The notes below the pieces were generated by a model. It searched no databases, was not told the DNA's origin, and saw nothing but the letters and a program-made list of their open reading frames with translations. From contig NZ_CP129016.1 in NCBI RefSeq assembly GCF_020524085.2, forward strand, positions 1,544,001 through 1,608,000: DNA of 64,000 nt. Direction: 5' to 3'. This DNA comes from Halobacillus litoralis. Its GTDB lineage: Bacteria; Bacillota; Bacilli; Bacillales; Halobacillaceae. This document shows, piece by piece, positions 2,441-30,316 of the stretch. The position numbers and the translations under genes were made by a program. The number at the start of each line of letters is the position of its first letter. The stretch's first letter is position 1.

Positions 2441-3412
2441 TTGGGGAAGAAATTTTTTGGTGTCGTGTTAACTAGTCTTATGGCCATGGTCCTTTTTGTA
2501 CCACATACTCAGGCTGCATCTGTCTCAGGCGATGAAGTAATCAAACTTGCAAAAGAACATCTTGGAACACCGTATCAGTGGAGTGGAGAAACTCCCACTG
2601 GGTTTGATTGTTCCGGATTTACATACTACATAATGGACAAAGTAGGAGTCGATCTTTCAAGGGGTTCCTATGATCAATATAAACAAGGGACCTATGTATC
2701 GAAATCAAATCTACAAAAAGGTGACTTGGTTTTCTTCTCGGGTACACATAAGCAAGGAATTTCCCATGTAGGGTTTTATATCGGAGACGGGAATATGATT
2801 TCGGCTACTAAAAGTAGAGGTATTGCCATTGACCCAGTCTTTTCTGGTTATTGGGGAGATAAGTACACGGGGGCCAAAAGGTTCTTACATAACAGTTTTT
2901 TCAATGATGTATCCAGTGATTACTGGGCTTATGATGAAATTAAACAATTAAATAACGAAGGAATCATCAATGGTTATTCTGATGGAAGTTTTGGACCTAC
3001 AGATCATGTCACCAGAGCACAAGTAGCTATGATGGTGGGCAAATCATTAAACCTTAATCCCTCTTCATCTGCCCAATTCAAGGATGTTTCTTCTGCACAC
3101 TGGGCATATGGTTACATCAATGCGGCTGTGAATGCTGGTCTGATCACTGGTTATGAGAACGGTACATTCAAACCAGATGAAGCGATTACCAGATCGGAAA
3201 TAGCAGCGATCATCAATAGAGCTTTCGAATTCAGCACTAACAGCAATTCTTATCGTTTTAAGGATATGAGCTCTTCTCATTGGGCCTATGAGGATGTGTA
3301 CGCATTAGCTTCGAATTCCATCACTTCAGGGTATAACGACAACACATTCCGCCCTAATCAGGAAGCAACTAGAGCTGAATTCAGTGCTTTCTTGTATCGT
3401 GCTTTATATTGA
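2441..3412 (+). CDS. NlpC/P60 family cell-wall hydrolase with three SLH repeats
   Basis: This is a secreted peptidoglycan endopeptidase anchored to the wall polymer. A signal peptide (residues 1-26, ending HTQAA) is followed by an NlpC/P60 domain (about 30-145) with the catalytic cysteine in FDCSGF (C57) and histidine in ISHVGFYIG (H109). The family cleaves the gamma-D-Glu to diamino-acid bond. Three C-terminal SLH repeats begin near 154, 213 and 274; the TRAQ, TRSE and TRAE motifs are visible. The start is TTG at 2441, with CGGGAGGT eight bases upstream. The catalytic-domain-first, SLH-last order is typical of Bacillus wall-remodelling enzymes. It is a single gene with no clear partner. Confidence 0.92.
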   Translation: MGKKFFGVVLTSLMAMVLFVPHTQAASVSGDEVIKLAKEHLGTPYQWSGETPTGFDCSGFTYYIMDKVGVDLSRGSYDQYKQGTYVSKSNLQKGDLVFFSGTHKQGISHVGFYIGDGNMISATKSRGIAIDPVFSGYWGDKYTGAKRFLHNSFFNDVSSDYWAYDEIKQLNNEGIINGYSDGSFGPTDHVTRAQVAMMVGKSLNLNPSSSAQFKDVSSAHWAYGYINAAVNAGLITGYENGTFKPDEAITRSEIAAIINRAFEFSTNSNSYRFKDMSSSHWAYEDVYALASNSITSGYNDNTFRPNQEATRAEFSAFLYRALY

Positions 3413-4043: not shown

Positions 4044-5543
4044 TTAACTAGATTTCTCCAACACCAACTTTTCTTCTTTCGCTTTAGCCGTCAGTACACT
4101 CACAATCCCCATAATGACAAATGCCGAAGCTGCACTAAAGAACATGGCAATAAAAATATTTCCGATTAAATTCAGAGATGTAAAAGCTACATACAAGGAA
4201 GCCCCCGTAACCACAGCGGCGATCGCGCCATAATGATTTGCCCGGTTCCAGAAATATCCGAGAGTGATGGGCGCAATAATTCCGGATATGATCGCGGAAA
4301 AGCTGAACTGGATTAGGAAGGCCAAGGACTCTGGGCGTTCTAAAGAGAAGTAAAGGGACAGGAGTCCAACGACAATCAGTGATCCTTTCGCTACTTTCAA
4401 TGATTTGTTGTCCAATTCTTTGGCTGACATCTTTCTTGAAGTCAGTAAAGGTGCGACGACGCGGTAAAGGTCGTTTCCGATACTTGTTGTAATTCCTAAA
4501 TACAAGCTGTCGGTACTAGATAGGATGGCAGAGATGATACCGACAATCATGATGGCTGCGATGACACTCGGGAAAGCCTCAATGACATAGGTTGGAATGG
4601 CCGCATCGGCACTTTGCAAGCTTGGGAAAAGCACGCGGGCAGCGAGTCCACCGAGAACCATCAGCGTAGAAATGATGCAGAGCACCAACCCTGCGGATAA
4701 GGTGAATGGAGCCAGGTCTTCTTCTTTTTCAATCGATAGCACTTTGTTCAATAGATGTGGCATCAATACGAAACTGAATAGGAGGAACTGCACGGCCATG
4801 ATGGCGAGCGCACTGTTATAGGGACCGCCGTCGGCAATGGCTGCAGTCAGGTTCGGATCAATGCTATTCAGGCGATCGGTCAGCACTCCGAATACGTTCC
4901 ATCCTCCACCAATCGTCCAGAAAAAGGACACAACGATGAATACGGATGTAATGGCCATGAGAACCCCCTGGATGCCGTCCGTGATGATTTGCGCGAAGGC
5001 ACCGCCTAGGCCGATGTAAAGAATGGTAATAGCAACACCAATGATGATGCCCCAGAAATAAGGGATACCGATGACCGTTTCAAAAATGGTTGCAAGTCCG
5101 ACATTTTGTCCGACGATATAATAGACATTGAATAAGATCAGTAAAGAGACGATGGCTTGCAGGGCTTTCGAGTTGTAACGTTTTCCAAGCCATTCCGGAA
5201 GTGTCGACACATGACCGAATTTTTTCCCGTAACGCCAGAACGTTTTGGCGAAGAGAAGTAGTCCGACCCAGGAAACGCCGAAGCAGCCAAGGGTGTACCA
5301 GAGCACAGCGGTTCCGTGTTCGTAGGCGAGGCCTGGAACGCCGATGAATAGGTTGGCACTGGCGTAAGATGTTGCAAAGCTTGCGCCGACAAGCCAGGGA
5401 CTCACTTTTCCGCGGGCTGTAGCAAAACCGGCCATCGACTGGCTGTGAGCCCGCCCTTTTTTACCCACCCACGTCACAGCGGCAAAGTACACAGCTAATA
5501 AAAGGATGACGGTCCATAGTAATACACTGGAACTTGTAAGCAT
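4044..5543 (-). CDS. Sodium:solute symporter (SSS family), 499 aa
   Basis: This is an integral membrane carrier with about 13 hydrophobic segments and normal family length. The start region (hydrophobic helix then WVGKKGRAHSQSMAGFATARGKVSPW) and the later LSSTDSLYLGITTSIGNDLYR are typical of SSS transporters, which couple Na+ entry to uptake of organic acids, amino acids or vitamins. It is the last gene of the acetoacetate/thiolase operon; a 31-aa membrane peptide gene ends four bases upstream. The context suggests it imports the acid activated by the acyl-CoA synthetase at 7218-9161, perhaps acetoacetate or a related short oxo- or methylthio-acid. The substrate cannot be read from sequence. 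Confidence 0.88.
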   Translation of the reverse strand: MLTSSSVLLWTVILLLAVYFAAVTWVGKKGRAHSQSMAGFATARGKVSPWLVGASFATSYASANLFIGVPGLAYEHGTAVLWYTLGCFGVSWVGLLLFAKTFWRYGKKFGHVSTLPEWLGKRYNSKALQAIVSLLILFNVYYIVGQNVGLATIFETVIGIPYFWGIIIGVAITILYIGLGGAFAQIITDGIQGVLMAITSVFIVVSFFWTIGGGWNVFGVLTDRLNSIDPNLTAAIADGGPYNSALAIMAVQFLLFSFVLMPHLLNKVLSIEKEEDLAPFTLSAGLVLCIISTLMVLGGLAARVLFPSLQSADAAIPTYVIEAFPSVIAAIMIVGIISAILSSTDSLYLGITTSIGNDLYRVVAPLLTSRKMSAKELDNKSLKVAKGSLIVVGLLSLYFSLERPESLAFLIQFSFSAIISGIIAPITLGYFWNRANHYGAIAAVVTGASLYVAFTSLNLIGNIFIAMFFSAASAFVIMGIVSVLTAKAKEEKLVLEKSS

Positions 5544-5546
5544 CGT

Positions 5547-5642
5547 TTATCGTTCTCCTTTCTTCGTCGTGTAAAAATTCTTCCATATCAATAAACCGAG
5601 TAACCAGAATAAAGCGACAGCGATGAAGTAAGTAAGGATCAT
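5547..5642 (-). CDS. 31-aa single-pass membrane peptide, probable symporter accessory subunit
   Basis: The start ATG (5642) overlaps the stop of the DUF35 gene as ATGA, with CAGGAGG correctly placed upstream. Its stop lies three bases before the symporter start and its last codons contain that gene's ribosome site (GGAG). The product has one hydrophobic helix (ILTYFIAVALFWLLGLLIW) and a basic tail (KNFYTTKKGER), which predicts an inside C-terminus. Tiny one-helix partners encoded just before SSS carriers are known in other operons; that this is one is inference from position and topology. It is easily missed because of its size. Confidence 0.7.
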   Translation of the reverse strand: MILTYFIAVALFWLLGLLIWKNFYTTKKGER

Positions 5643-6061
5643 TTCGTTTCCTCCTGTTTTTTGAAAAATGGCAAGGGGTGTGGGCCGATTTCACTGATTT
5701 CCATTTCGACTTTTAGGTTATGTTTTAAGGCGGTTTCCTCTACCAATATATGAGTCAATAGAGATGGTCCTTCTTCAAGGGTGACGATGCCGACCACATA
5801 GGGCGTATGTTCCTGCCAGGCGGGATGTCCGGCCCGATGGATCACACTCCATGTTTTCAGCCTTCCCCGTCCGGATGCTTTTTTCCATGTTAACGAATCA
5901 TGAAAACAGTGTGGACAATGTTCGCGAGGGTAGAAGATCCACTGCTCACATTTGTCACATTGCTGAAGGCTGAGGTGTCCGGCTTGGATGCTTTCCCAGA
6001 AAGGCTGACTAACAGGTGTAATTGTAGGACGTGGCAGAGAAATGTTTTGTAGTTGGCTCAT
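5639..6061 (-). CDS. DUF35 zinc-ribbon/OB-fold acyl-CoA-associated protein (140 aa)
   Basis: An N-terminal rubredoxin-like zinc ribbon (C35, C38, C49, C52; CxxC-N10-CxxC) is followed by an OB-fold (about 60-125, GRGRLKTWSVIHRA, PYVVGIVTLEEG). DUF35 proteins have no catalysis of their own; they bind acyl-CoA and form tight complexes with thiolase-like partners, for example in archaeal HMG-CoA synthesis, PhlACB, and the Ltp2 aldolase of steroid side-chain breakdown. Here the gene overlaps the thiolase-like gene by four bases (ATGA at 6058-6061), so the pair is translationally coupled and very likely forms one enzyme. Confidence 0.88.
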   Translation of the reverse strand: MSQLQNISLPRPTITPVSQPFWESIQAGHLSLQQCDKCEQWIFYPREHCPHCFHDSLTWKKASGRGRLKTWSVIHRAGHPAWQEHTPYVVGIVTLEEGPSLLTHILVEETALKHNLKVEMEISEIGPHPLPFFKKQEETK

Positions 6062-7218
6062 CGTTCTCCTCCTAACACAAGGGCTGTCGTTTCGCTTAAT
6101 GTGGCTCCGTTCCCCGTCACAAGGGCTTGTCTCGCATCTGGTATTTGACGATTTCCAGCTTCGCCTCTCAATTGATGGACGGCTTCCACAACATGCGACA
6201 TGCCGCCGGCCAAGTCTGCCTGACCGAAGCCCAACTGACCGCCATGCGTGTTCAATGGATAATCCCCGTCATGACTGAAGCTATGGTTTTTGACAAAATC
6301 ACCGAACTCCCCTGGCTTACATAGACCAGCACTCTCAAGGGTGGTGGCCACGACACTTGTATAACAGTCATACAGTGAGAAAAGGTCGATGTCTTCAATG
6401 TTCGTACGAGCTTGGTCAAGCGCCCTTGGGATTGAATAGTTGAATGGCAGAGCGTCTATACTTGGCGCTTGGCTTACCGCCCGGTGTGTGATCTTTTCAC
6501 CAGCTCCTTTCAGATAGACCGGTTTATGCTTCCCTTCCGCTGCTTTTTCCGCAGATGTCACGACGACGGCTGCTCCACCGGCAACAGGCATGACGATTTC
6601 CAGCAGGTGAAGCGGATCGGCAATCATAGGAGAGGCGATAATATCTTCGACTTCAACGGGCTTGTTATAGAAAATCGCATCCGGGTTCAACTGAGCATTT
6701 TTCCTGTGCCAGTACGCGATCCTTGCAAAGTCTTCCTGCGTGGACCCGTACTCTTCCATGTGCTGTCTTTTTATGAGGGCATAGGAGGTATTGGCTCCCG
6801 ATGCACCGAAAGGCACATCAAATTCGCGGATCGGATTACGGTTTGGCGATCGTAATGTTTCCCCTTTTTCATTTTTGTTGGCTAAAACACAGACGACGGT
6901 TTCACACATGCCTGCCTGGATGGCTGCGGCGGCTCTCCAGATCATCCCTGGTCCGGTCGCTCCCCCGAGATCCACTGTGTTGGACATCGTGGGATCGATT
7001 CCCAGATACTCAGAAACCGTCGCCGGCACATGCTGCGGCGTTTCCCCGACTTGGGGTCCGACGAGCAGGCCGTCGACGTCTTCTTTGGAGATGCCGGCAT
7101 CCTGGATGGCGAGACGGACGGATTCTGCAATCAAACTTAAGGTGGTTTTTCCTTCTGAATAACGGACGGGCTTCAGCTCACCGATTCCGGTGATCGCCCC
7201 TTGAATTTGGCTGGCCAT
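6058..7218 (-). CDS. SCP2-thiolase-like protein, possible acyl-CoA retro-aldolase (386 aa)
   Basis: The protein has the thiolase fold and full family length, but it belongs to the lipid-transfer/SCP2 type. Where thiolases have the nucleophilic cysteine (CxSG), it reads DLGGATGPG, so the cysteine is replaced. It keeps SLYDCYTSVV and NTHGGQLGFG, the signature of the Ltp2-like branch. In that branch the thiolase-like protein plus a DUF35 partner cleaves 3-hydroxyacyl-CoA by retro-aldol chemistry rather than thiolysis. The DUF35 partner is the next gene with a four-base overlap, and the start overlaps the stop of the acyl-CoA synthetase by one base (TAATG). Aldolase activity is inference; a non-canonical thiolase or condensing enzyme is possible. 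Confidence 0.82.
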   Translation of the reverse strand: MASQIQGAITGIGELKPVRYSEGKTTLSLIAESVRLAIQDAGISKEDVDGLLVGPQVGETPQHVPATVSEYLGIDPTMSNTVDLGGATGPGMIWRAAAAIQAGMCETVVCVLANKNEKGETLRSPNRNPIREFDVPFGASGANTSYALIKRQHMEEYGSTQEDFARIAYWHRKNAQLNPDAIFYNKPVEVEDIIASPMIADPLHLLEIVMPVAGGAAVVVTSAEKAAEGKHKPVYLKGAGEKITHRAVSQAPSIDALPFNYSIPRALDQARTNIEDIDLFSLYDCYTSVVATTLESAGLCKPGEFGDFVKNHSFSHDGDYPLNTHGGQLGFGQADLAGGMSHVVEAVHQLRGEAGNRQIPDARQALVTGNGATLSETTALVLGGER

Positions 7219-9161
7219 TACACGAACTCCCTTTCTGAAAGCTGACGAAATGCTTGTAAGCTGGATGGATTACGTAAGGACGCTTCGTTTTTCACTTCTT
7301 CTCCTAAAGCGGCTGTTTTCGCTGCTCCTTCGACTCTTTTTCCATTGATGGTATGAGGGATTTCCTCCACTTGATAAATCCGCTTCGGTACATGACGAGG
7401 AGAAGCTTTGGTCCGGATTTGTCGCCGTATTTCTTTTGCCGAGTCTTCTGTAAGGTTTTCCGTCACCACACAAAGCACGATTTCTTCATCATGATCTTTC
7501 GGTAATCCGAAAACGACGCTGTCTTTGATTTCGTTGATATGGTCGACGACACCATAAATTTCAGCGGTACCAATGCGGACGCCGCCTGGATTCAATGTCG
7601 TATCGGCACGTCCATATATGATGAACGATTGGTCGATGGTCTGTTCAGCTAAGTCTCCATGTGTCCAAATCCCTGGCCGCTTAGAAAAATAGCTCTTCCT
7701 GTAACGTTCCTCTCCACCTTCACCGAAGAAGGTGAGCGGCATGCTCGGGAATGGTTTGGTGCAAACAAGGTCACCCTTTTCTTCGTAGACCGATGCTCCT
7801 CGCTCATCCAATACATCAACCGCCATTCCTAACGCTTTGCATGCAATTTCGCCTTGCTTCAATGGATGAACGGGTGATCCCATTACAAAACAGCCGATGA
7901 TTTCTGTTCCGCCGGAAATGGAAGCAAGGAACAGATTCTGTTTGATCGTTTGATAGATCCAGTTGTATTGCTCTGGTGCTAAAGGAGCCCCGCAGGATAG
8001 CAGACTTTTCAAAGTGTCGAGCGAGTGACTGCTTTTCAGATCGACGCCTGCCTTCATCAATGTATCCAGGTACTTAGGACTTGTGCCGAAATGGGTGATG
8101 CCCACTTCATCCGCAATGTCCCACAAATGGGTGAGGTAATCTTGCCTTACGGGAGAACCGTCGTACAATAAAATAGCCGCTTCACTGGCTAACCCTGAAA
8201 CGAGCCATGGATACATCATCCAGGCGGTATTGGTGTACCAGAACAACACATCATTTTGCTGGACATCGCAATGCAGCTGGTGTTCTTTCACATGTTGCAG
8301 GAGTGTCCCCCCGACCGAATGGACGATCGCTTTCGGCAGTCCCGTCGTTCCCGATGTATATAAAATGTATAAAGGATGATTAAAAGAAACGGGTTGGAAC
8401 GTTGGCTCTACTGCATCATTGTTGCAAAGTTCGTCCCAGGATAGAGATTGTAGTCCTTCAATATCCGTTTCACCTCCGAACGTCACAAGAGCAGATAGTC
8501 CTTCCAGATGTTCCGTCGTCTGCTTGATTTTTTCTTTGATCTGGAATGGCTTTTGCTTATATTGATAGGAGAGCGTAGCAATCAACACTTTCGGTTTCAC
8601 CTGACCGATGCGATCGACGATCCCTTTCGTCCCGAAGTCAGGGGAACAGGAGGTCCATGTCGCCCCGAGTGAAGTGGTCGCAAGCAAGGCGACCAACCCT
8701 TGGATATCGTTCGTCGTGACCCCGGCCACACAATCGCCTTCCTGTATACCTAATCGCTTTAACCCTTCCTGAGCTTTGGCAACTGATTGCCTTAGCTCAT
8801 GTAAAGTAATACTTCGTTGAATGCCTTCCTCATTCGCTTCATAGGCAACGATTCGATCAAGAGAACCGCGCAGTAAGTTTTCGGCGAAGTTCAACCGTGC
8901 TTCCGGAAACCAGGTACTATCCGGCATGGAAGTGCCTGGGACAAAAACACGGTCTCCCTTTTCTCCGATAATTCCCGCATAATCCCACACCGCTGACCAA
9001 AACTCTGAAAGGTGGGAAACGGACCAGCGGTGGAAACGTTCATAAGGGAAAAGCGGCTGGCCGGTATAGTCAGCAAAAGCTTTGATGTGCGATTGTTCTA
9101 TTCGTTCGCTCGATGGCTCCCATAGATAAGGGGAACGCTGAGCGGTGATCGTTGTATTCAT
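7218..9161 (-). CDS. aacS: Acetoacetyl-CoA synthetase (acetoacetate-CoA ligase), 647 aa
   Basis: This ATP-dependent enzyme activates acetoacetate, or a similar acid, to its CoA thioester through an acyl-adenylate. The N-terminal ACAS-type segment (LWEPSSERI..., WFPEARLNFAENLLRG) is typical of this subfamily. The AMP-binding motif is LYTSGTTGLPKAI (268-280), and the C-terminal domain has YGRADTTLNPGGVRIGTAEIY and the lysine motif TINGKRVE. It lies 20 bases after the thiolase gene and overlaps the next gene by one base. Acetoacetyl-CoA made here could be split by the upstream thiolase to two acetyl-CoA. Because the operon is SAM-controlled, other substrates such as sulfur-containing acids should be kept in mind. 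Confidence 0.88.
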   Translation of the reverse strand: MNTTITAQRSPYLWEPSSERIEQSHIKAFADYTGQPLFPYERFHRWSVSHLSEFWSAVWDYAGIIGEKGDRVFVPGTSMPDSTWFPEARLNFAENLLRGSLDRIVAYEANEEGIQRSITLHELRQSVAKAQEGLKRLGIQEGDCVAGVTTNDIQGLVALLATTSLGATWTSCSPDFGTKGIVDRIGQVKPKVLIATLSYQYKQKPFQIKEKIKQTTEHLEGLSALVTFGGETDIEGLQSLSWDELCNNDAVEPTFQPVSFNHPLYILYTSGTTGLPKAIVHSVGGTLLQHVKEHQLHCDVQQNDVLFWYTNTAWMMYPWLVSGLASEAAILLYDGSPVRQDYLTHLWDIADEVGITHFGTSPKYLDTLMKAGVDLKSSHSLDTLKSLLSCGAPLAPEQYNWIYQTIKQNLFLASISGGTEIIGCFVMGSPVHPLKQGEIACKALGMAVDVLDERGASVYEEKGDLVCTKPFPSMPLTFFGEGGEERYRKSYFSKRPGIWTHGDLAEQTIDQSFIIYGRADTTLNPGGVRIGTAEIYGVVDHINEIKDSVVFGLPKDHDEEIVLCVVTENLTEDSAKEIRRQIRTKASPRHVPKRIYQVEEIPHTINGKRVEGAAKTAALGEEVKNEASLRNPSSLQAFRQLSEREFV

Positions 9162-9181
9162 TGGGTTTGTCTCCTTTCGAG

Positions 9182-10336
9182 TTATGAATAAGGAACTTCA
9201 ATCAACAGGGCCATACCCTGTCCACCACCGCCGCAAAGGGAAGCGATGCCTTTTCCTCCGCCGCGTCGTTTCAGTTCATGGGCAAGGGTCAAAACGAGCC
9301 GGAATCCTGTGCCTCCTAAAGGGTGACCAAGAGCGATTGCGCCACCGTTCACATTGACCCGGTCATAATCGATGCCAAGCTCCCGGCAGCTGCCGATAAC
9401 AACACTGGCAAAAGCTTCATTGATTTCAAATAGATCGATATCCTCGGTCGTCAATTGGTGTCTGTCTAATAGTTCTTGGATCGCTTGCGATGGTTTGGTT
9501 TGTAAACTCGGATCAGGTCCGGCAATCTCTGACCAATCTATGATCTCGGCGAGTGGATCCTGGCCGAGTGATTCTGCTTTCTCTTTAGTGGTAACGATCC
9601 CAACGCTCGCCCCGTCCGTCATCTGCGACGCATTGCCTGCCGTAATCGTGCCTTCGTTGGAAAAGGCGGGGGAGAGGCTGGATAACTTTTCTACTGTCGT
9701 TCCTTTGCGGATGCCTTCATCTTCCTCGAGTAATCCTGTAAAAGGAGTGATTTCAGGTTGGAACCATCCATTTTCCTGAGCGTGAGATGCTCGTTGCTGG
9801 GAAAGGGCGGCATATTCATCTTGTTCCTCACGACTGATCTCGAAGGAGCGGTTTTTCTCATCGGTAAGAGCGCCCATCGAGACATCGGTTAAGGCACACC
9901 ATAAACCATCGTTCAGTAATGTGTCTTTTAGTAGGGCATGACCAAGTCCGGAAGAAGCACGTACAGGAGCGGTATGAGGTGCATTCGTCATCGAGTCGAA
10001 TCCACCGACGATGTATAACTCTCCTTCATTCAATTTCAGTCTTCGGGAGGCATCCGCAATCGTAGCGATCCCACCCAAACAGACATTATTCAATGTGATG
10101 GCAGGTGTACTGATTTCCACCCCCGCTTTATAAGCGACTTGCCTCGCAGGGTTTTGGCCGCCCCCAGCCTGAATCACTTGGGCAAGCAGCACACCATCCG
10201 CCTGTTTGGCTATCGGATTTTTCTCTAACAAAGCGCTTAGCGCATGCGATCCTAGCTCGGATGCGGTTTTCTTTTTCAAAGCCCCTTTCCACTTTCCGAA
10301 CGGGGTGCGGATGCCATCTAGTAGTACTGTAGTCAT
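9182..10336 (-). CDS. Acetyl-CoA acetyltransferase (thiolase), 384 aa
   Basis: A classical thiolase with all catalytic residues: nucleophile C86 (NNVCLGG), H338 (ALGHPLGGTG) and C368 (SLCGGGGQG). It interconverts two acetyl-CoA and acetoacetyl-CoA or cleaves longer 3-oxoacyl-CoA. It is the first gene of a six-gene minus-strand operon and has AAAGGAG correctly spaced before ATG 10336. The leader carries two complete SAM-I riboswitches (10410-10687) and a consensus promoter (10714-10742). Low SAM should therefore raise expression, which is unexpected for a general thiolase. Confidence 0.92.
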   Translation of the reverse strand: MTTVLLDGIRTPFGKWKGALKKKTASELGSHALSALLEKNPIAKQADGVLLAQVIQAGGGQNPARQVAYKAGVEISTPAITLNNVCLGGIATIADASRRLKLNEGELYIVGGFDSMTNAPHTAPVRASSGLGHALLKDTLLNDGLWCALTDVSMGALTDEKNRSFEISREEQDEYAALSQQRASHAQENGWFQPEITPFTGLLEEDEGIRKGTTVEKLSSLSPAFSNEGTITAGNASQMTDGASVGIVTTKEKAESLGQDPLAEIIDWSEIAGPDPSLQTKPSQAIQELLDRHQLTTEDIDLFEINEAFASVVIGSCRELGIDYDRVNVNGGAIALGHPLGGTGFRLVLTLAHELKRRGGGKGIASLCGGGGQGMALLIEVPYS

Positions 10337-10365
10337 CTATGTATCCACTCCTTTTTGTATAATAG

Positions 10366-10402
10366 AAAGAGCCCTCTTCACAAAAATAAGAAGAGGGCTC
10401 TT
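10366..10402 (-). terminator. Riboswitch-controlled terminator 2 (proximal)
   Basis: AAGAGCCCTCTTC and GAAGAGGGCTCTT form a 13-bp stem, followed on the minus strand by TCTATTAT. It lies between the proximal SAM-I aptamer and the thiolase start. Confidence 0.88.
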
Positions 10403-10409
10403 GGCTCTT

Positions 10410-10513
10410 CTTATCTTCCAGGATCATCTCCTGCAGGAATTAGCACCTTATCAAGCGTTTGCTTGATGGTTGCCGGGCGTCAACGGGCCAGTCCCTCTGC
10501 CTCTCTGGATAAG
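10410..10513 (-). promoter_or_regulatory. SAM-I (S-box) riboswitch 2, proximal to the thiolase operon
   Basis: On the minus strand the aptamer reads CTTATCCAGAGAGG, GAGGGACTGGCCC, GCCCGGCAACC, GGTGCTAATTCC and closes with GATAAG. It has all conserved S-box blocks: P1, the kink-turn, the J1/2-P3 core and the pseudoknot partner. SAM binding should favour the terminator at 10366-10402, so the operon is off at high SAM. Confidence 0.95.
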
Positions 10514-10530
10514 AATTAAGTATTCAATTG

Positions 10531-10566
10531 GAAAATATAAAACCTCTCTATCAGCGATAGAGAGGT
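10531..10566 (-). terminator. Riboswitch-controlled terminator 1 (distal)
   Basis: A perfect 12-bp stem (AACCTCTCTATC / GATAGAGAGGTT, 10541-10566) is followed on the minus strand by TTATATTTTC. It sits between the two SAM-I aptamers, so transcripts must pass two separate SAM checkpoints. Confidence 0.88.
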
Positions 10567-10584
10567 TAGAGATTATGTAAATCT

Positions 10585-10687
10585 CTTATCTTCCTGAGCG
10601 TTCACTCAGTAGGATTTGGCACCATGCTATGAATATAGCGGTTGCCGGGTTTCACAGGGCCAGTCCCTCCACCTCTCTGGATAAGAT
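10585..10687 (-). promoter_or_regulatory. SAM-I (S-box) riboswitch 1, distal
   Basis: On the minus strand it reads CTTATCCAGAGAGGTGGAGG, ACTGGCCC, AACCCGGCAACC, GGTGCCAAATCC and closes with GATAAG. All core blocks match the S-box consensus. P2-P4 differ clearly from the proximal copy, so this is not a recent duplication. Confidence 0.95.
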
Positions 10688-10713
10688 GTTCTTTCGTTAT
10701 TTGGTTAAGTGCC

Positions 10714-10742
10714 ATGTTAGCAAGGGAAAGGACAAGTGTCAA
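10714..10742 (-). promoter_or_regulatory. Sigma-A promoter of the SAM-controlled operon
   Basis: On the minus strand, -35 TTGACA (10737-10742), a 17-base spacer and -10 TAACAT (10714-10719). It lies just upstream of the distal SAM-I aptamer, so both riboswitches are in the leader. Confidence 0.85.
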
Positions 10743-11634: not shown

Positions 11635-14600
11635 ATGTTTTTTAAAAAAGGAAAAATAGAGCGTGTACTTGTGCTTGCCATCCTGGCGCTTATTGTCTCG
11701 CTGGGAAATTCGGAGGTTAGTTATGCAGGTTCGGATGTTACTCCACCTGTACTAAATGATTTAACTGTTTCAAAAAAGGAAGCTACAGTAGGAGATGAAG
11801 TGACAATCACAGCTGATGTGATTGATGATTTATCAGGAGTAGATAGGGTTAGTATCAAGTATGAAGCGCCAGAAGGAACCGCAACAAAATACGTAACACT
11901 AAGGTTAAATGCTGCAACTAGCAAATATGAAGGTAGTCTTGAAATTGGAGATTACGATGTTGCAGGAGCATGGAAAATAGATTACTTATACGTAAAAGAT
12001 GTCCAGGATAACTATTATTATTACTATAATTCTGATGGTGGTTATGAGTATAAACGGGAAACCTCAGAGTATATAGATCTAAGTCCTTATAATATAGTAG
12101 TGTCGGGGACGGAAGAAGATAAACAGCCTCCAAAGCTAGACAATCTTCAAGTAACTCCTCTAGATGTAACAAAAAGGGATATTGTAAAGATATCAGCTGA
12201 AGTCAGTGATAATTTATCAGGGGTAGATAGGGTTAGTATCAAGTATGAAGCCCCAGAAGGAACCGCAACAAAGTACGTAACATTAAGGTTGAATGCTGAA
12301 ACTGGAAAATATGAAGGTAGCCTTGAAATTGGAGATTACGATGTTGCGGGAGCATGGAAAATAGATTACTTATACGTAAAAGATGCCCAGGATAACTATT
12401 ACTATTATTATAACTCTTACGGTGGTGCAGAGTATAAGCGGGAAACCTCAGAGTATATAGATTTAAGTCCTTATAATATAGTGGTATCTGGGACAGAAGA
12501 AGATAAACAGCCTCCAAAGCTAGACAATCTTCAAGTAACTCCCACTAATGTAAAAAGGGGAGAAGTAGTAAAGTTCAGTGCTCAGGTAAGTGATAATTTA
12601 TCAGGAGTAGATAGGGTCAGTATCAAATATGAAGCGCCAGAAGGAACCGCAACAAAGTACGTAACATTAAGGTTGAATGCTGAAACTGGAAAATATGAAG
12701 GTAGTCTTGAAATTGGAGATTACGATGTTGCGGGAGCGTGGAAAATAGATTACTTATACGTAAAAGATGCCCAGGATAACTATTACTATTATTATAACTC
12801 TTACGGTGGTGCAGAGTATAAGCGGGAAACCTCAGAGTATATTGATCTCAGCTCTCATGATGTAGTGGTAGAAGAAACAGATAAGATTGCACCAATAACA
12901 AGCGTGGATTTCACCTCATCCACTCCAATGAAGAATGGATGGTACCCTTCAAATGTTACAGCTACTTTAAGCGCAACAGATGAAGAAGCAGGTATCAAAA
13001 AGATAGAGTATCGGACAAATGAAGGAAATTGGATCGAATATACAGAGGCCTTCGAAATCAGCCAGGAAGGCGAAGTTCAGCTTGATTACCGAAGCGTAGA
13101 CCATGCTGGCAATATAGAGGAAATTCAAACCGAGATCATCAAAATAGATAAAACATCGCCGGTGACGACAACTTCTGAAATTCCTTCCGGCTGGGGTAAT
13201 GAAGAAATAGAGCTATCCTTAACGGCTAGAGATGAATCTTCAGGTGTAAGTTCTATTGAATATAGAATGAACGAAGGTGAGTGGACTGCCTACGATACAC
13301 CTATTACGATTGATGAAGAAGGTAAACATGTCATTGAATATCGAAGTACAGATCAAGCTGGGAACCAGGAAGAAATTCAGACGGTCGATGTCAATCTTGA
13401 TTTTGGATCCCCAGAAACTACAATGAGTTCCGTGAGTGATGTATGGCATAAATCCAATGTGGAAGTAACATTAAGTTCTTCAGATGGTTTGTCAGGCGTC
13501 TCAAGAACGGAATATAGAGTGAACGAAGAGGAATGGGCAACCTATGATACTTCTATTCTTGTTGAAGGAGAAGGAAGCAATAAAGTAGAATTCCGAAGCA
13601 TCGATCATGCTGGAAACGTAGAAGCGACACAAAGCAAAGTGATTAAAGTAGACAAAACCGCACCAGTGACCACAGCTGAAGAAGTACCGACGGACTGGTC
13701 CAATCAGGATGTTGAGCTAACCTTATCGTCTTCAGATGAGTTGTCAGGCGTGTCTTCCATCGAATATAAAATCAATGATGGCGAGTGGAAAGACTATAGT
13801 GATCCTATTAAGTTAGATCAAGAAGGATCGACAACGATTGAATTTAGAAGTAGTGATAACGTGGGTAATATAGAAGAAGTTCAAAATGAAACAATTAAAT
13901 TGGACAAAACGGCACCAGTTACTTCAGTTAACGGAGTCCCTGAAAAGTGGGCGAATAAAACGACAGAGATCACATTAACTTCTAAAGACCAATGGTCAGG
14001 TGTAGCTACGATTGAGTATAGAATGAACGAAGGGGAATGGACAGAGTATAGCGGTCCGATTACCTTCCAGCAGAAGGGCGAAAATGTCATTGACTATCGC
14101 AGTGTCGATACAGCTGGGAACGTAGAAGAGTTTAAGAGTTTAACTGTGAAATATGACGATCATGCTCCACAAACATCAGCTAGTGATGTAGGTAATCAAT
14201 GGCATAACTCCGAAGTAGAGGTATCCTTGAGTTCCACTGATCCATTATCCGGAGTGGCTAAGACAGAATACCGAATCAATAAGGGAGAATGGAAAGAATA
14301 TACGACTCCTGTATTGATTGATGAAGAAGGCAGCCACACTGTTGATTATCGCAGTATCGATTATGCGGGCAACAAAGAAGAGGATAAAAGCATCACAATT
14401 ATGCTGGATACAACGGCTCCAGATACAGCAATGAGTACTGAAAAGCGAGATGGTGATTTGGAGGTAACCCTGAGTTCTTCCGATGTACTGTCTGGGGTGA
14501 GCAAGACAGAATATCGAATCAATCAAGGAGAATGGAAGGAATATAACTCTGTAATTCAATTAAGCGAAGAAGGAACTCACACTGTCGACTATCGTAGTAT

Positions 14601-15192
14601 CGATTATGCAGGGAATGTGGAAGTAATCCAATCTACGGAGTTAACGATAGACAAACCTTCCAATGACGGTACTTTTAAAGATATCAAAGGCCATTGGGCG
14701 GAAGACAAAATAAATTATTTAGTACAAAATAACTTATTATCGGGGTATAAAGACGGTACCTTCCAACCTGATGTAAATATAACGAGGGCTGAAGCAGCAA
14801 CCGTTATTTCCAGGGAACTAGAACTTGAGAAGATTGGATCTGACTTTACAGATGTTTCAGAAGATCACTGGGCGAGCGGGTACATTGGTGCAGCCGCCAA
14901 GGCCAATATCCTCTCAGGCTACAAGGATGGAACCTTTCACCCGGATGAAAATTTAAGTCGAGCAGAAATGGCAACCATCGTTTCAAGAGCTTATCAATTA
15001 CAAGGCCAAACCGATATTTTCTCAGATACGAAAGGGCACTGGGCGGATTCCTATATTCAAACCCTGGCAGCCAATAATATAACAGTTGGGTACCCGGATG
15101 GAACCTTCAAACCGGAACAGGAAATTACCAGAGCTGAATTTGCCTCTTTTGTAGCGAGAGTATTGGAAGACAGCTTCAGAGTAACTGACTGA
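11635..15192 (+). CDS. Large SLH-anchored surface protein with Ig-like and OmpL47-like repeats (1185 aa)
   Basis: This is a secreted modular wall protein, probably an elongated stalk, adhesin or S-layer-associated protein. The signal peptide spans residues 1-31 (ending VSYA). Residues 35-418 are three 128-aa repeats that are almost identical (LSGVDRVSIKYEAPEGTATK, YLYVKD, QDNYYYYYNS). Residues about 415-1005 are seven repeats of ~84 aa of the OmpL47 beta-domain type (SGVSSIEYRMNEGEW, DYRSIDYAGN). Residues 1013-1185 are three SLH repeats with ITRAE, LSRAE and ITRAE. No enzyme motif is visible. AGAGGAG precedes ATG 11635. The repeats at DNA level invite copy-number change. Confidence 0.9.
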   Translation: MFFKKGKIERVLVLAILALIVSLGNSEVSYAGSDVTPPVLNDLTVSKKEATVGDEVTITADVIDDLSGVDRVSIKYEAPEGTATKYVTLRLNAATSKYEGSLEIGDYDVAGAWKIDYLYVKDVQDNYYYYYNSDGGYEYKRETSEYIDLSPYNIVVSGTEEDKQPPKLDNLQVTPLDVTKRDIVKISAEVSDNLSGVDRVSIKYEAPEGTATKYVTLRLNAETGKYEGSLEIGDYDVAGAWKIDYLYVKDAQDNYYYYYNSYGGAEYKRETSEYIDLSPYNIVVSGTEEDKQPPKLDNLQVTPTNVKRGEVVKFSAQVSDNLSGVDRVSIKYEAPEGTATKYVTLRLNAETGKYEGSLEIGDYDVAGAWKIDYLYVKDAQDNYYYYYNSYGGAEYKRETSEYIDLSSHDVVVEETDKIAPITSVDFTSSTPMKNGWYPSNVTATLSATDEEAGIKKIEYRTNEGNWIEYTEAFEISQEGEVQLDYRSVDHAGNIEEIQTEIIKIDKTSPVTTTSEIPSGWGNEEIELSLTARDESSGVSSIEYRMNEGEWTAYDTPITIDEEGKHVIEYRSTDQAGNQEEIQTVDVNLDFGSPETTMSSVSDVWHKSNVEVTLSSSDGLSGVSRTEYRVNEEEWATYDTSILVEGEGSNKVEFRSIDHAGNVEATQSKVIKVDKTAPVTTAEEVPTDWSNQDVELTLSSSDELSGVSSIEYKINDGEWKDYSDPIKLDQEGSTTIEFRSSDNVGNIEEVQNETIKLDKTAPVTSVNGVPEKWANKTTEITLTSKDQWSGVATIEYRMNEGEWTEYSGPITFQQKGENVIDYRSVDTAGNVEEFKSLTVKYDDHAPQTSASDVGNQWHNSEVEVSLSSTDPLSGVAKTEYRINKGEWKEYTTPVLIDEEGSHTVDYRSIDYAGNKEEDKSITIMLDTTAPDTAMSTEKRDGDLEVTLSSSDVLSGVSKTEYRINQGEWKEYNSVIQLSEEGTHTVDYRSIDYAGNVEVIQSTELTIDKPSNDGTFKDIKGHWAEDKINYLVQNNLLSGYKDGTFQPDVNITRAEAATVISRELELEKIGSDFTDVSEDHWASGYIGAAAKANILSGYKDGTFHPDENLSRAEMATIVSRAYQLQGQTDIFSDTKGHWADSYIQTLAANNITVGYPDGTFKPEQEITRAEFASFVARVLEDSFRVTD
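11737..12888 (+). repeat. Three tandem 384-nt coding repeats
   Basis: The units begin at 11737, 12121 and 12505. Units 2 and 3 are nearly identical over more than 250 bases (from the LSGVDRVS codons to the SEYIDLS codons). Unit 1 differs slightly more. They are direct in-frame repeats suited to recombination. Confidence 0.92.
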
Positions 15193-15974: not shown

Positions 15975-17180
15975 TTAAGGATTGTAATAATAATCAGGAT
16001 CATTCATGAAGCGGTTAAAGACATTCCATCCTTGTTGCTCTTTAACTTCATAGGTTTCAGTATTCGTGGCTGCTCCATTTTCAAAATTAATTTTCCAATC
16101 GTTAATAAAGAAAGACCAGGTTGAATTATTGTAAATGATGGTTTGGAAATGGTTATCCTTTACATGTTTGATCCCGTCTTGTGCGAAGCAGAACATAGAG
16201 TTATCTGTATCCATAACCCCAATTCTATTCATCTCTCCATTTTTTGCATAAAATAATTGTCCACACGTCACATTGGAGCTCTGAACTTCTGTTGCAACTA
16301 ATACATCAGGATTACTATCAAGGACATACAAGTTTTGTTGTGATTCGTTGTATGTGAAGCTTCCGATGGCAACTTTTTGATCCATCGGCGACGAGTCGCC
16401 TAGTTGTAATGTCATTTCATAATAGCCTGAATGGAGAATGTCCCCTTCGTTGGCTCCAGCCCAAGGCAAGTCATTGATTGTCGTTTTCTCGTTATCTGCA
16501 AATACCCGAAGTTTATAAGAACGGTGAAGGCCGTCAAACGTAGTTTCCAATCGTGCAGGTGAACCTGGTACACGAAACTCTGGATTGATGGTAGCACCTA
16601 AAACTTTGGCAAATGCAGCACGAGTAATATCATTTCATGGTTTGAATGTTCCATCCGTGTACCCGTTAATAATCCCTTTAGAATTTAAGTCCAAGATACT
16701 CTCCTGTGCCCATGGGAATATATGATCATCAGTAAATCCCTGAGGGTTCCCTTCACGGTTGATGGAATACGCACGGTCTACGATGAGAGTCACTTCAGCT
16801 CGGGTTATGTATGCATTCGGTTTAAAAGTCTGGTCTGGATATCCAGAAATGATTCCCTTTTCATACGCGACACGAACAGCATCTGAATAATACTTGCCCT
16901 TTGGAACATCCACAAACGGATTGCTTTGTTGCGGAGCAGCTTCTGGATATAAGTCTTTGATCACCATTAAAGCCACTTGGCCCCGAGTTACTTCTTCCTT
17001 CGGTTTAAATGATCCATCGGGATATCCGCTAATGATTCCATGATTGCTCAAATATAAGATTTCACTTTTGGCCCATGGTACCTGATCTAAATCCGGGTAA
17101 GATTCCGACGCGTTCACAGTGAGCATCGGAATTGTAAGGAAAACATAGAGTACGAAAATTGATGATAAGATTTTCTTCAA
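15975..17180 (-). pseudogene. SLH-domain surface protein interrupted by an in-frame TGA
   Basis: One reading frame runs from TTG 17180 (GGAGGAA six bases upstream) to TAA at 15975, broken only by a TGA at 16635-16637. Before the stop are a signal peptide and two and a half SLH repeats (GYPDGSFKP, GYPDQTFKP, GYTDGTFKP). After it, in the same frame, the third repeat continues as NDITRAAFAKVLGATI, followed by a C-terminal domain of about 200 residues of unknown type. The stop replaces one codon between FKP and NDITRA. It could be a nonsense mutation, a base-calling error, or a readthrough site. Translation from an internal ATG at 16550 would give only the unanchored C-terminal domain. Confidence 0.85.
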
Positions 17181-27137: not shown

Positions 27138-28556
27138 TTAGCTTGCTTTCGATCGCGTATAGTGCTGCTGGTGTATATAATCATTAAAGTAATGGTTCGT
27201 TTCTTTCACGATCACTTTATAAAGAAGCAATAAAGCGATTAAGTTGGGAATCATCATCAAGGCATTCGCCATGTTGGCAAACGCCCAAACAAGATCAAGC
27301 TGCATGACGGCACCCATAAAGGTTGCAGTAATGTAGATGAAACGATATGGAACGATATAGCGCAGGCCTAAGAGGTATTCGAAGCACTTCTCTCCGTACA
27401 TGTACCACCCGACAATCGTTGAAAAGCCGAAGAAGATGACGGAAAAGGCTACGATGTATTCGCCTATAGTACCTAATGCGTGTCCGAATGCCGCACTTGT
27501 AAGAGCACCACCGTCCAGGCCGGTCGCGTGTTGAACACCTGAGATCGCTCCACCGGATGGATCCCAGAACCCTGTCATGATCAGGACAAGTCCAGTCATG
27601 GTACAAACGACGATGGTCACGATGAACGTACCTGTCATGGCCACGAGCGCTTGTTTTACTGGGTGATCGGTTTTAGCGTTACCGGCGATTAATGCCGCTG
27701 TACCTAAACCAGCTTCGTTTGAGAAAATACCACGTGATACACCGCTTCTGACAGCTTCCATGACGACAACCCCAGCGAAACCACCAGCTGCGGATACCGG
27801 ACTGAATGCGTATTGGAAGATCATTTCAAAAGCAGGGACGATCGCCTCGTAATTGGCGATAATGATGAATAAAGCCCCGCCAATATAAAGGAAGGCCATG
27901 ATTGGTACGAAAAATCCTGCCACTGTACTGATCCGCTGGATGCCTCCGAAAATGATCAGTCCAGTCAGGATCGCGAGCACAGCTCCTGTAAACCAGCCAT
28001 TGATATGGAAGCTTTCTGTCATAACATCTGAGATGGTATTGGACTGAACACTGTTTCCGATTCCTAAAGCTGCAAAGGCACCGAATAACGCAAATGCCAC
28101 CGCGAGCCATTTCCACTTCTTTCCGATGCCTCGTTCTACATAATACATTGGCCCACCGGAATATTCTCCGTTCTCATTTTTTACTCGATACTTCATCGCA
28201 AGGAGGGCTTCGGAGTATTTGGTCGCCATCCCTAGCAGGCCGACAATCCACATCCAGAAAATCGCGCCAGGTCCACCGAGCGTCAAAGCTGTAGCAACAC
28301 CTGCGATATTTCCGTTACCTATGGTCGCTGATAGCGCTGTCATTAAAGTTTTGAAGTTACTGATATCCCCTTGGGAATCCTCGGATGTTTCTGTTTTTTC
28401 CTCTTTCGTAAATGCTAGTTTAAAGGCGTAGAACAGTTTGCTGAACTGCAGCCCTTTTAGCATAATGGTCAAGAACAACCCTGTCCCGAATAACAGGACC
28501 AAACTGGGTGTTCCCCATAGTACATCATTGATTTGGTTCAATACGTCTAGCATCAT
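27138..28556 (-). CDS. Alanine/glycine:cation symporter (AGCS family), 472 aa
   Basis: A sodium- or proton-coupled amino-acid carrier with about 11 membrane segments. The family blocks are clear: GNGNIAGVATAL near residue 80, GGPMYYVERGIGKKW, RSGVSRGIFSNEAGLGTAALI in the middle, and TFMGAVMQLDLVWAFANMANALM toward the end. Length is normal. GGAGGG precedes ATG 28556, with a second ATG directly after it. It is a single gene; a cre-like palindrome lies about 110 bases upstream between it and the YrhK-like gene. Confidence 0.92.
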   Translation of the reverse strand: MMLDVLNQINDVLWGTPSLVLLFGTGLFLTIMLKGLQFSKLFYAFKLAFTKEEKTETSEDSQGDISNFKTLMTALSATIGNGNIAGVATALTLGGPGAIFWMWIVGLLGMATKYSEALLAMKYRVKNENGEYSGGPMYYVERGIGKKWKWLAVAFALFGAFAALGIGNSVQSNTISDVMTESFHINGWFTGAVLAILTGLIIFGGIQRISTVAGFFVPIMAFLYIGGALFIIIANYEAIVPAFEMIFQYAFSPVSAAGGFAGVVVMEAVRSGVSRGIFSNEAGLGTAALIAGNAKTDHPVKQALVAMTGTFIVTIVVCTMTGLVLIMTGFWDPSGGAISGVQHATGLDGGALTSAAFGHALGTIGEYIVAFSVIFFGFSTIVGWYMYGEKCFEYLLGLRYIVPYRFIYITATFMGAVMQLDLVWAFANMANALMMIPNLIALLLLYKVIVKETNHYFNDYIHQQHYTRSKAS

Positions 28557-29195: not shown

Positions 29196-30059
29196 CTATT
29201 TAGAAATATACTCTTTCACAACTTCATAGACATAATCCTGGTTCGCTTCAGCCGTGTCTGGATTATATTCTCCGCCATTCGTTTTGTTATTGGATAGTGT
29301 GCGAATGCCGAGGTAAGGCACATCATAGGCTTTGGCGATTTGCGCACCGGCCGCTCCTTCCATCTCCTCGACAGATGTGCCGAAGTTCTCATGGAACCAC
29401 TGGATGCGGTCGACTTCATTGTTCCAGACGTCTGCAGAACCGATTGTACCCTCGACGACTTTTCCTTCTTTATGAGTATCTTTGACATCTTTGGCAGCTT
29501 TGAGCAGTTCTTTGTCACCTTCAAAATAACGGATGTTTTCAGCATCAGGGTCTTCTCCGGCACTGCCTTCAGACGCCATGAGATCCATAGGAATCCATTC
29601 TTTCGGTGCGATGCCTTCTTCATCTTCTCTATGCCCAGTCTTCAATGAACCGATGTTGACTGTTCTTTCTCCCAGGACGATATCAAATACATGCAAGTCA
29701 GGATCGTGACCGCCGGATGTTCCTTGGTTGATGATGGCAGCCGGGTTGAATTTTTCAATAGCGATCGCCGTAGCGGCGGCTGTATTTTCCATACCTTTTC
29801 CTGTTTTCATGACAATCACAGGATAGCCATCGACTTTACCTTTATAAAAGACGAAGTTCCCGGAGGTTTCTTCTTCTACATCCTCAAGCTTTGCTGCAAA
29901 ATTTTCTGCTTCAATAGGCATCGGTCCCTGGATCAGGATCGGCTGTTGTTCGTTTTCTTCAGCGGATGCCTCCCCTTCTGTGGAACTCTGACATCCGGCC
30001 ACGAAAGATAAGATGAGAGTGATGAATAGTAAGATTGCTAGGTTGCGAATGTTTTTCAT
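29196..30059 (-). CDS. Lipoprotein of the MTA/SAH nucleosidase (phosphorylase) family, 287 aa
   Basis: A signal peptide with lipobox (FVAGC, Cys23) places the enzyme outside the membrane. The mature domain follows the PNP/UDP-1 fold: IIVLIQGPMPIEAE-like start, GKGMENTAAATA near residue 90, INQGTSGGHDP, and late VEEMEGAAGAQIA with the ribose-contacting Met-Glu pair. Cytoplasmic MTAN splits methylthioadenosine and S-adenosylhomocysteine; a secreted version probably hydrolyses external purine nucleosides so that the base can be taken up. The leader carries a guanine-type purine riboswitch, which supports a purine-scavenging role over methionine recycling. The exact substrate is unknown. Confidence 0.85.
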   Translation of the reverse strand: MKNIRNLAILLFITLILSFVAGCQSSTEGEASAEENEQQPILIQGPMPIEAENFAAKLEDVEEETSGNFVFYKGKVDGYPVIVMKTGKGMENTAAATAIAIEKFNPAAIINQGTSGGHDPDLHVFDIVLGERTVNIGSLKTGHREDEEGIAPKEWIPMDLMASEGSAGEDPDAENIRYFEGDKELLKAAKDVKDTHKEGKVVEGTIGSADVWNNEVDRIQWFHENFGTSVEEMEGAAGAQIAKAYDVPYLGIRTLSNNKTNGGEYNPDTAEANQDYVYEVVKEYISK

Positions 30060-30156: not shown

Positions 30157-30223
30157 AAAGTTAAAGCTCAATCTCAGCGGAATGCTGAAAATTACAGTTG
30201 CGTTTATGCAACTGTACAGCTTC

Positions 30224-30296
30224 AACCCGTAGTCTGGTTCTTTCAATGGGAACCAGGTAGAGACGCTCAGACCTTATTACTGAGAATATACGAGTG
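30224..30296 (-). promoter_or_regulatory. Purine riboswitch aptamer, guanine type
   Basis: On the minus strand: P1 ACTCG...CGGGT, J1/2 TATATTC, P2 CTCAG/CTGAG with loop AATAAGG, J2/3 CGTCTCTACC, P3 TGGTTC/GAACCA and J3/1 GACTACG. The discriminating base in GAC is C, as in guanine/hypoxanthine sensors (adenine sensors have GAT). It differs from the most common J2/3 (GTTTCTACC) by one C. Confidence 0.88.
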
Positions 30297-30316
30297 CGTA
30301 ATGTGATTGTGTTGCT

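Follow-up and report, generated by a model that had tools for sequence, protein, structure and literature searches.

A tandem SAM-I riboswitch leader was found upstream of an acyl-CoA ligase, aldolase and thiolase operon in Halobacillus litoralis, and most related loci of the Bacillota carry SAM-I at the same place. The window, as we call the whole stretch of 64,000 nucleotides that was analysed, holds leader and operon on the minus strand (Table 1). Judged from the sequence, the operon is very probably under OFF control by SAM-I; a methionine-linked scavenging role for its genes is probable. Taken as a whole, the locus would on balance be best explained by a SAM-repressed, starvation-induced route that scavenges a 3-hydroxy (or 3-oxo) acid with a link to methionine supply.

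Table 1. Leader elements and operon genes, in order of transcription, with window positions
Feature	Position	Strand	Evidence
Promoter TTGACA-N17-TAACAT, sigma-70/A type, 10/12 consensus	10714..10742	-	Sequence scan; similar sites in relatives
SAM-I riboswitch aptamer 1	10583..10687	-	RF00162, 95.5 bits, E 1e-21, full length (model 1-108)
Intrinsic terminator 1, 12-pair stem and U tract	10541..10567	-	Terminator scans
SAM-I riboswitch aptamer 2	10408..10515	-	RF00162, 93.1 bits, E 5e-21, full length (model 1-108)
Antiterminator 2: P1 3' strand with terminator 2 5' arm and loop, 14-pair helix, -14.0 kcal/mol	10380..10421	-	Pairing prediction
Intrinsic terminator 2, 13-pair stem, loop of 10, -22.5 kcal/mol, weak U tract	10367..10402	-	Sequence, pairing prediction
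THL: acetyl-CoA C-acyltransferase family, thiolase motifs, both Cys present	9182..10336	-	TIGR01930, 400.3 bits (cut-off 240.55)
AACS: AacS-family acid-CoA ligase, pocket unlike canonical AacS	7218..9161	-	TIGR01217, 695.5 bits (cut-off 520.9)
THLx: SCP2-thiolase-type, predicted Sal-type retro-aldolase (Y283, C285, Q328, Q333)	6058..7218	-	Thiolase_C_1, residues
DUF35 (zf-ChsH2 and OB_ChsH2_C), presumed THLx partner	5639..6061	-	Domain matches
31-aa membrane-type peptide, perhaps a small symporter subunit (a guess)	5547..5642	-	Sequence
Sodium:solute symporter (SSF / SSS)	4044..5543	-	PF00474, 184.1 bits

The region 10366-10742 runs from the -35 box through the end of terminator 2. Aptamers were called with Rfam cmscan, and both copies exceeded the gathering score of RF00162 (44.4); the two complete canonical switches proposed in the initial annotation, with one terminator per aptamer, were thus confirmed. 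The copies are 67 nt apart and both keep the SAM-I core (J1/2 AGAG; P3 stretches GCAACC and GGTGC). Taken alone, the promoter was no better than chance (1 site in its stretch; shuffles 1.0, sd 1.1). In 40 of 42 relatives, however, a site matching at least 9 of 12 positions was present within 90 nt upstream of aptamer 1; among random stretches from the same loci, 95 of 840 had one.

Pairing prediction gave a clear expression platform for copy 2. Copy 1 has a clear terminator as well, but a weak antiterminator: the 5' arm of terminator 1 pairs partly with the 3' strand of P1 (5 pairs, -7.7 kcal/mol, versus -16.4 kcal/mol for the terminator). Terminator 2 was not listed by the rule-based scan, whose rule does not admit its loop and weak U tract. 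In the stricter terminator scan, 13 of 77 aptamers had no hairpin and 8 more had only hairpins weaker than -5 kcal/mol; the looser scan placed a hairpin behind every aptamer. The first start codon (10336) lies 30 nt past terminator 2 with no gene between, which argues that the leader controls the thiolase operon directly, as first proposed. A hidden methionine gene as the true target was considered and rejected, as none lies between the leader and THL in the window.

The downstream genes named in the initial annotation were confirmed, except that the 'thiolase-like' protein (THLx) is better called aldolase-like. AACS passes the curated equivalog cut-off for acetoacetate--CoA ligase (TIGR01217), and its nearest ligases are those of six Halobacillus records (92-94% identity). 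The 31-aa peptide had no family match in Pfam or NCBIfam, and the symporter stayed under the cut-off of all 10 NCBIfam models that it matched. By eye, SLH-like repeat proteins surround the operon (window 11635-15192 on the plus strand, also 2441-3412 and 16635-17180); one of them has 1185 aa with long internal repeats.

The genome contains 13 SAM-I aptamers, 11 of them besides the window pair. Around these 11, 7-14 kb was read; 10 proteins were checked against NCBIfam and/or Pfam and the rest were named by eye (among them metK, metC, metH and metP/Q). The aptamers precede metI-yitJ (both proteins over the NCBIfam cut-off), metNPQ (tandem), a second metNPQ, metY (TIGR01326, over cut-off), an S-methyltransferase gene (mmuM-like; PF02574), metY-metX (MetX being encoded behind this second metY), cysH (over cut-off), a TauE-family permease gene divergent from cysH (PF01925), msrA (PF01625) and metK. 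The two MetN proteins reached 407 and 394 bits with TIGR02314, below its cut-off of 500. Outside methionine and sulfur genes, SAM-I has no other target in the genome than the window operon. A tandem leader as such is no oddity here, since another pair precedes metNPQ in the same genome (G000:C1:1920963-1921069 and 1921296-1921404; locus L015).

In the assembly used, a conserved part of the metK frame (by eye; L022 825-2051; G000:C1 1983824-1985050) is interrupted by one in-frame TAG. metK is usually essential, and the codon may be either a sequencing error or a true nonsense codon. Elsewhere in the window a purine riboswitch (RF00167, 70.2 bits; 30210-30313, minus strand) precedes a gene (29196-30059, minus strand) for a lipoprotein-like protein of the phosphorylase superfamily (PF01048), next after which comes an amino-acid-carrier-like gene (by eye; 27138-28556).

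A search with AACS as query gave 66 loci in named genomes, 44 of Bacillota and 22 of others. A covariance model made from the 13 aptamers of the genome itself was run on the window and L024-L105 (83 sources). The same leader, for which the initial annotation had envisaged a survey of relatives, was indeed widespread: SAM-I lay upstream of AACS on the same strand at 42 of the 44 Bacillota loci (two aptamers at 33, one at 9) and at 0 of the 22 non-Bacillota ligase loci. The genus names with SAM-I were 12: Halobacillus, Gracilibacillus, Lentibacillus, Saliterribacillus, Salimicrobium, Aquibacillus, Oceanobacillus, Fredinandcohnia, Bacillus, Lederbergia, Heyndrickxia and one record named Paenibacillus. 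Ligase identities among the SAM-I loci went down to 63%. At the two remaining Bacillota loci, L076 (Oceanobacillus rekensis) and L077 (Cytobacillus citreus), no SAM-I was found near the operon even at E up to 5; elsewhere in these genomes there were 9 and 6 matches, respectively. THL of L076 is preceded on its own strand by a MetY homologue (67%; 419-1702), from which a single 221-aa frame separates it.

The operon is patchily distributed: of 397 genomes sampled from the order, 24 have THLx. Within the family of the window, 17 of 44 genomes have the ligase; the 16 besides its own, which overlap with the 44 loci above, all carry two aptamers, some of which are truncated where the stretch ends. 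A link to MTA salvage was considered and dropped: mtnA (TIGR00512) occurred in 7 of 17 genomes with the ligase and in 9 of 27 without it (one of the nine weak).

In the ligase tree (66 rows) the 43 SAM-I rows and L076 formed one side of a branch (95.7), and the SAM-I state changed twice, which is best read as one gain and one loss. The tree was made without L146 and L148-L150 (repeats of L074, L073, L097 and L064) and without the distant L101, L103-L105 and L110; L098, L099, L100 and L102 have no full ligase frame, and L110 (Rhodococcus), whose ligase is 28% identical, and L111 (Vibrio), which has a different ligase, were set aside. Among 15 Halobacillus leaders the first aptamers formed one clade (99/95), so the first copy is older than the Halobacillus species sampled. 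The second aptamers of these leaders were not resolved in the aptamer tree, and aptamer trees beyond Halobacillus gave no resolution. All 46 core columns were unchanged in 27 of 34 first aptamers and in 31 of 34 second ones, in agreement with the initial view that both copies are retained.

Behind the leader, the first recognised gene at the 42 loci was THL in 27, AACS in 7, MetY in 6 and an OsmC-like gene in 2, where 'first recognised' allows for intervening unrecognised frames, such as transposase genes in L073. Leader and ligase thus stay together while the first gene varies. The loci with MetY first are L067-L070, L072 and L097 (B. timonensis, Bacillus sp. HNG and Fredinandcohnia; 73-74% to the genome's own MetY). 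The L067 protein belongs to the O-acetylhomoserine sulfhydrylases and carries a CoA_binding_2 domain at its C-terminus. The presence of MetY, homocysteine synthase, in the operon is the strongest direct tie to methionine; apart from MetY in these six loci, a sulfur role is known for no operon gene.

Ten loci (L065-L070, L072-L074 and L097) have an MFS protein instead of the symporter. That of L067 matched TIGR00883 (451 bits, cut-off 443); its nearest named models, shikimate and ProP transporters, both stayed below cut-off. The OsmC-like gene lies between the tandem SAM-I leader and THL in two Lentibacillus loci (L055 and L056; 4269-4751), and its product scores best, though under the cut-off, with the model OsmC-related (seleno)protein. 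L083 lacked a recognisable THLx and DUF35, and L075 a recognisable DUF35; L102 is a cut contig. By eye, ectABC-like (ectoine) genes follow AACS in L083 (Oceanobacillus polygoni, 8472-10693). In L073/L148 (Heyndrickxia sporothermodurans) the ligase is separated from the single SAM-I aptamer by transposase genes, and control may therefore be broken there. On the same contig as the B. timonensis operon, a further SAM-I aptamer (L116 2064-3101) precedes an SsuE-type FMN reductase gene (over cut-off) and a fragment of an NtaA/DmoA-type monooxygenase gene, a unit that looks like organosulfur scavenging under SAM-I.

The product of the third gene had been annotated as 'thiolase-like plus DUF35', which is not what its residues indicate. 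THLx lacks the nucleophilic Cys that thiolases carry in the N-terminal half; in 0 of 45 THLx rows was it present in the VDLGG[AS] stretch. The best PDB match of THLx was 9MYR (E 8.2e-92). This is CtSal bound to Shy DUF35, a bile-acid retro-aldolase in which Tyr302 and Cys304 (YDCY) are catalytic and Cys304 is proposed to be activated by Gln347 and Gln352 (PMC12329534). The corresponding residues Y283, C285, Q328 and Q333 were present in 45 of 45 THLx rows. THLx is therefore probably a retro-aldolase of the Sal type rather than a thiolase, and should split 3-hydroxyacyl-CoA into acetyl-CoA and an aldehyde or ketone.

The pairing of an SCP2-thiolase-type protein with an adjoining DUF35 gene is shared with CtSal-ShyDUF35 and with 6OK1, which we take to be the Ltp2-ChsH2 complex; the YDCY stretch and the two Gln are shared with CtSal. 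Unlike the steroid retro-aldolase systems, the window operon has no steroid genes that we noticed around it, its DUF35 stands as a short protein of its own and has four Cys, and its symporter and ligase suggest a small acid.

Two genomes (L067 and L068) contain, besides the SAM-I operon, a SAM-I-free sister copy (L145 and L144, respectively) with the order AACS-THLx-DUF35-THL-MaoC-like and a divergent MFS gene. This layout resembles L077 and plasmid loci of Mesorhizobium, Sulfitobacter, Rhizobium and Shinella. The alphaproteobacterial loci L106-L109 (ligase-THLx-DUF35-MaoC-MFS) adjoin sugar-ABC, SDR and class II aldolase genes, and no substrate follows from this context. Comparison of the 43 SAM-I ligases with the three sister rows (L077, L144 and L145, the last two near-identical) gave nine fixed differences (columns 179, 269, 318, 360, 390, 394, 399, 412 and 524), six of which fall between 318 and 412. 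The same test gave 2 fixed columns in THLx, 1 in THL and 2 in DUF35. Around the gain of SAM-I control, the ligase changed near its pocket more than the later enzymes did.

Columns 394 and 412 split the SAM-I ligases from all seven alphaproteobacterial rows, and 318 and 390 from six of the seven. Column 318 follows the W(I/V)T stretch at a distance of two to three positions. In alignments with acetyl-CoA synthetases, column 390 corresponds to the Val of VGEP, and column 417, a Gly in all rows, to Trp414 of Salmonella Acs. The acyl pocket of Acs is presumably lined by Val310, Thr311 and Val386, among others. Trp414 is likewise described as lining it in two reports (PMC6122825, PMC10455477).

Compared with canonical AacS (TIGR01217; PDB 4WD1), AACS shares the family score and the Gly at the position of Trp414, and differs in the acyl-pocket region (AWMMYPW and SCGAPL versus GWMMWN and TGSP). 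The pocket residues Y317, P318, C390 and A392 stand against W, N, T and S in 4WD1 and in 16 of 16 canonical rows, a comparison that comprised neither L081 nor L082, both of which were included in the sister comparison. The alphaproteobacterial L082, without SAM-I, shares P318 and C390 and has no telling genes in its neighbourhood; L076, also without SAM-I, keeps P318. The initial proposal of a methionine-related acid as substrate is in part, and indirectly, supported by these shifted pocket residues and by MetY in the operon of six relatives.

From these parts a mechanism can be proposed in which the tandem leader acts as two OFF switches in series. At high SAM each aptamer would hold P1, the antiterminator would be blocked and transcription would stop at terminator 1 or 2; at low SAM the polymerase would pass both terminators. 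The operon would then be a member of the methionine (S-box) regulon, expressed when methionine or SAM is scarce. An organic acid would be imported by the SSS symporter (an MFS symporter in some relatives) and loaded on CoA by the AacS-family ligase with its own pocket. THLx and DUF35 would split the 3-hydroxyacyl-CoA into acetyl-CoA and an aldehyde, and/or THL would split a 3-oxoacyl-CoA. The acid is most likely tied to methionine supply, in that it may carry sulfur or a methylthio or sulfonium group, or may feed the MetX/MetY route. Given the expected shut-down by SAM and the linkage to MetY in some species, either the second product or the acetyl-CoA is probably used to make methionine. That relatives keep leader and operon paired suggests that methionine synthesis receives sulfur or building blocks from these genes.

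The make-up of the operon would suit a 3-hydroxy acid that bears sulfur. One candidate, which we regard as a long shot, is a sulfonium or methylthio 3-hydroxy acid such as the algal osmolyte gonyol (5-dimethylsulfonio-3-hydroxypentanoate), and we know of no genes for gonyol metabolism. It would be used under methionine starvation by uptake through an osmolyte-type symporter, CoA ligation in the re-shaped AacS pocket and retro-aldol cleavage to acetyl-CoA and a sulfur-bearing aldehyde, with the methylthio group passed on to methionine, and with MetY co-encoded in some species. Marine bacteria metabolise gonyol, some of them releasing methanethiol (PMC7221440).

The operon could instead serve plain use of acetoacetate or 3-hydroxybutyrate, with SAM control arising because MetX spends acetyl-CoA in homoserine O-acetylation and MetY releases acetate; the operon would then supply acetyl-CoA whenever methionine synthesis is on. 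AACS does pass TIGR01217, a thiolase with its motifs is present, and MetX and MetY both lie behind SAM-I in this genome. A TIGR00366-family gene (below cut-off) also lies beside the ligase in L107, one of the four alphaproteobacterial plasmid loci examined; the family presumably holds short-chain fatty acid transporters. We nevertheless consider this explanation rather unlikely. Acetoacetate or 3-hydroxybutyrate fits the family name of the ligase and leaves the aldolase, which that route does not need, and the changed pocket unexplained: residues 317, 318, 390 and 392 differ from those of every canonical AacS row. Moreover, acetyl-CoA is in general rarely limiting.

Alternatively, the leader may have been captured by operon rearrangement from a metY unit, as the arrangement in B. 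timonensis could suggest, leaving a control without metabolic sense. MetY as first recognised gene in 6 of 42 loci and a single gain that accounts for the SAM-I rows would agree with such an origin. Against it stands retention: the leader is kept in 42 of 44 loci, under 12 genus names and down to 63% ligase identity, 33 times in tandem, with aptamer core positions mostly intact and with leader and ligase still joined where the first gene has changed. Capture of this kind therefore seems improbable to us. That the aptamers have changed their ligand and report another metabolite is very improbable. The spermidine-sensing variants of SAM-I provide a precedent in Bacillaceae-type genera, and they differ in J1/2 and the P3 internal loop (PMC10853860). 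Both window copies, in contrast, match the SAM-I consensus and the genome's own metI, metN and metK aptamers in AGAG, GCAAC and GTGC; with this canonical core, a spermidine variant was considered and rejected. Scavenging of an acid tied to methionine supply thus remains our preferred reading.

Tandem SAM-I leaders as such are known already: 164 double and 1 triple arrangements are given in a review of tandem riboswitches (PMC9481103). The window leader likewise places two complete units of the same class, each an aptamer with its terminator, ahead of a single operon, and pseudo-cooperative OFF control is expected; its target here is an acyl-CoA ligase, aldolase and thiolase operon. A steeper response from two switches in series, which the review calls pseudo-cooperative, can fairly be inferred, as the initial annotation had it. 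The leader class and the transcription-termination mechanism are also those of the Bacillaceae S-box regulon, with metI, metNPQ, metY, cysH, msrA and metK as co-members, and the difference is again the target, since we know of no other acyl-CoA operon among the members of that regulon. A search of the open-licence literature found no report of SAM-I or S-box control of acetoacetyl-CoA synthetase or thiolase; given that scope, the absence does not show that such control is unpublished. What appears new is SAM-I control of an acyl-CoA operon, with one gain on the ligase tree; MetY as first operon gene in six relatives; a ligase that differs from its SAM-I-free sisters mainly at or near the acyl pocket; and a 'thiolase-like' protein with the four Sal active-site residues, probably an aldolase.

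With this finding the SAM-I regulon gains an entire catabolic operon, seen under 12 genus names. The two genomes that hold one copy under SAM-I and a sister copy without it amount to a natural experiment, and the fixed differences between the two groups lie mainly at and near the acyl pocket of the ligase. Which acid is wanted when SAM is low is therefore a question that can be tested directly, with one enzyme and a panel of acids, and the answer could uncover a new pathway for scavenging organosulfur compounds or methyl donors in saline habitats.
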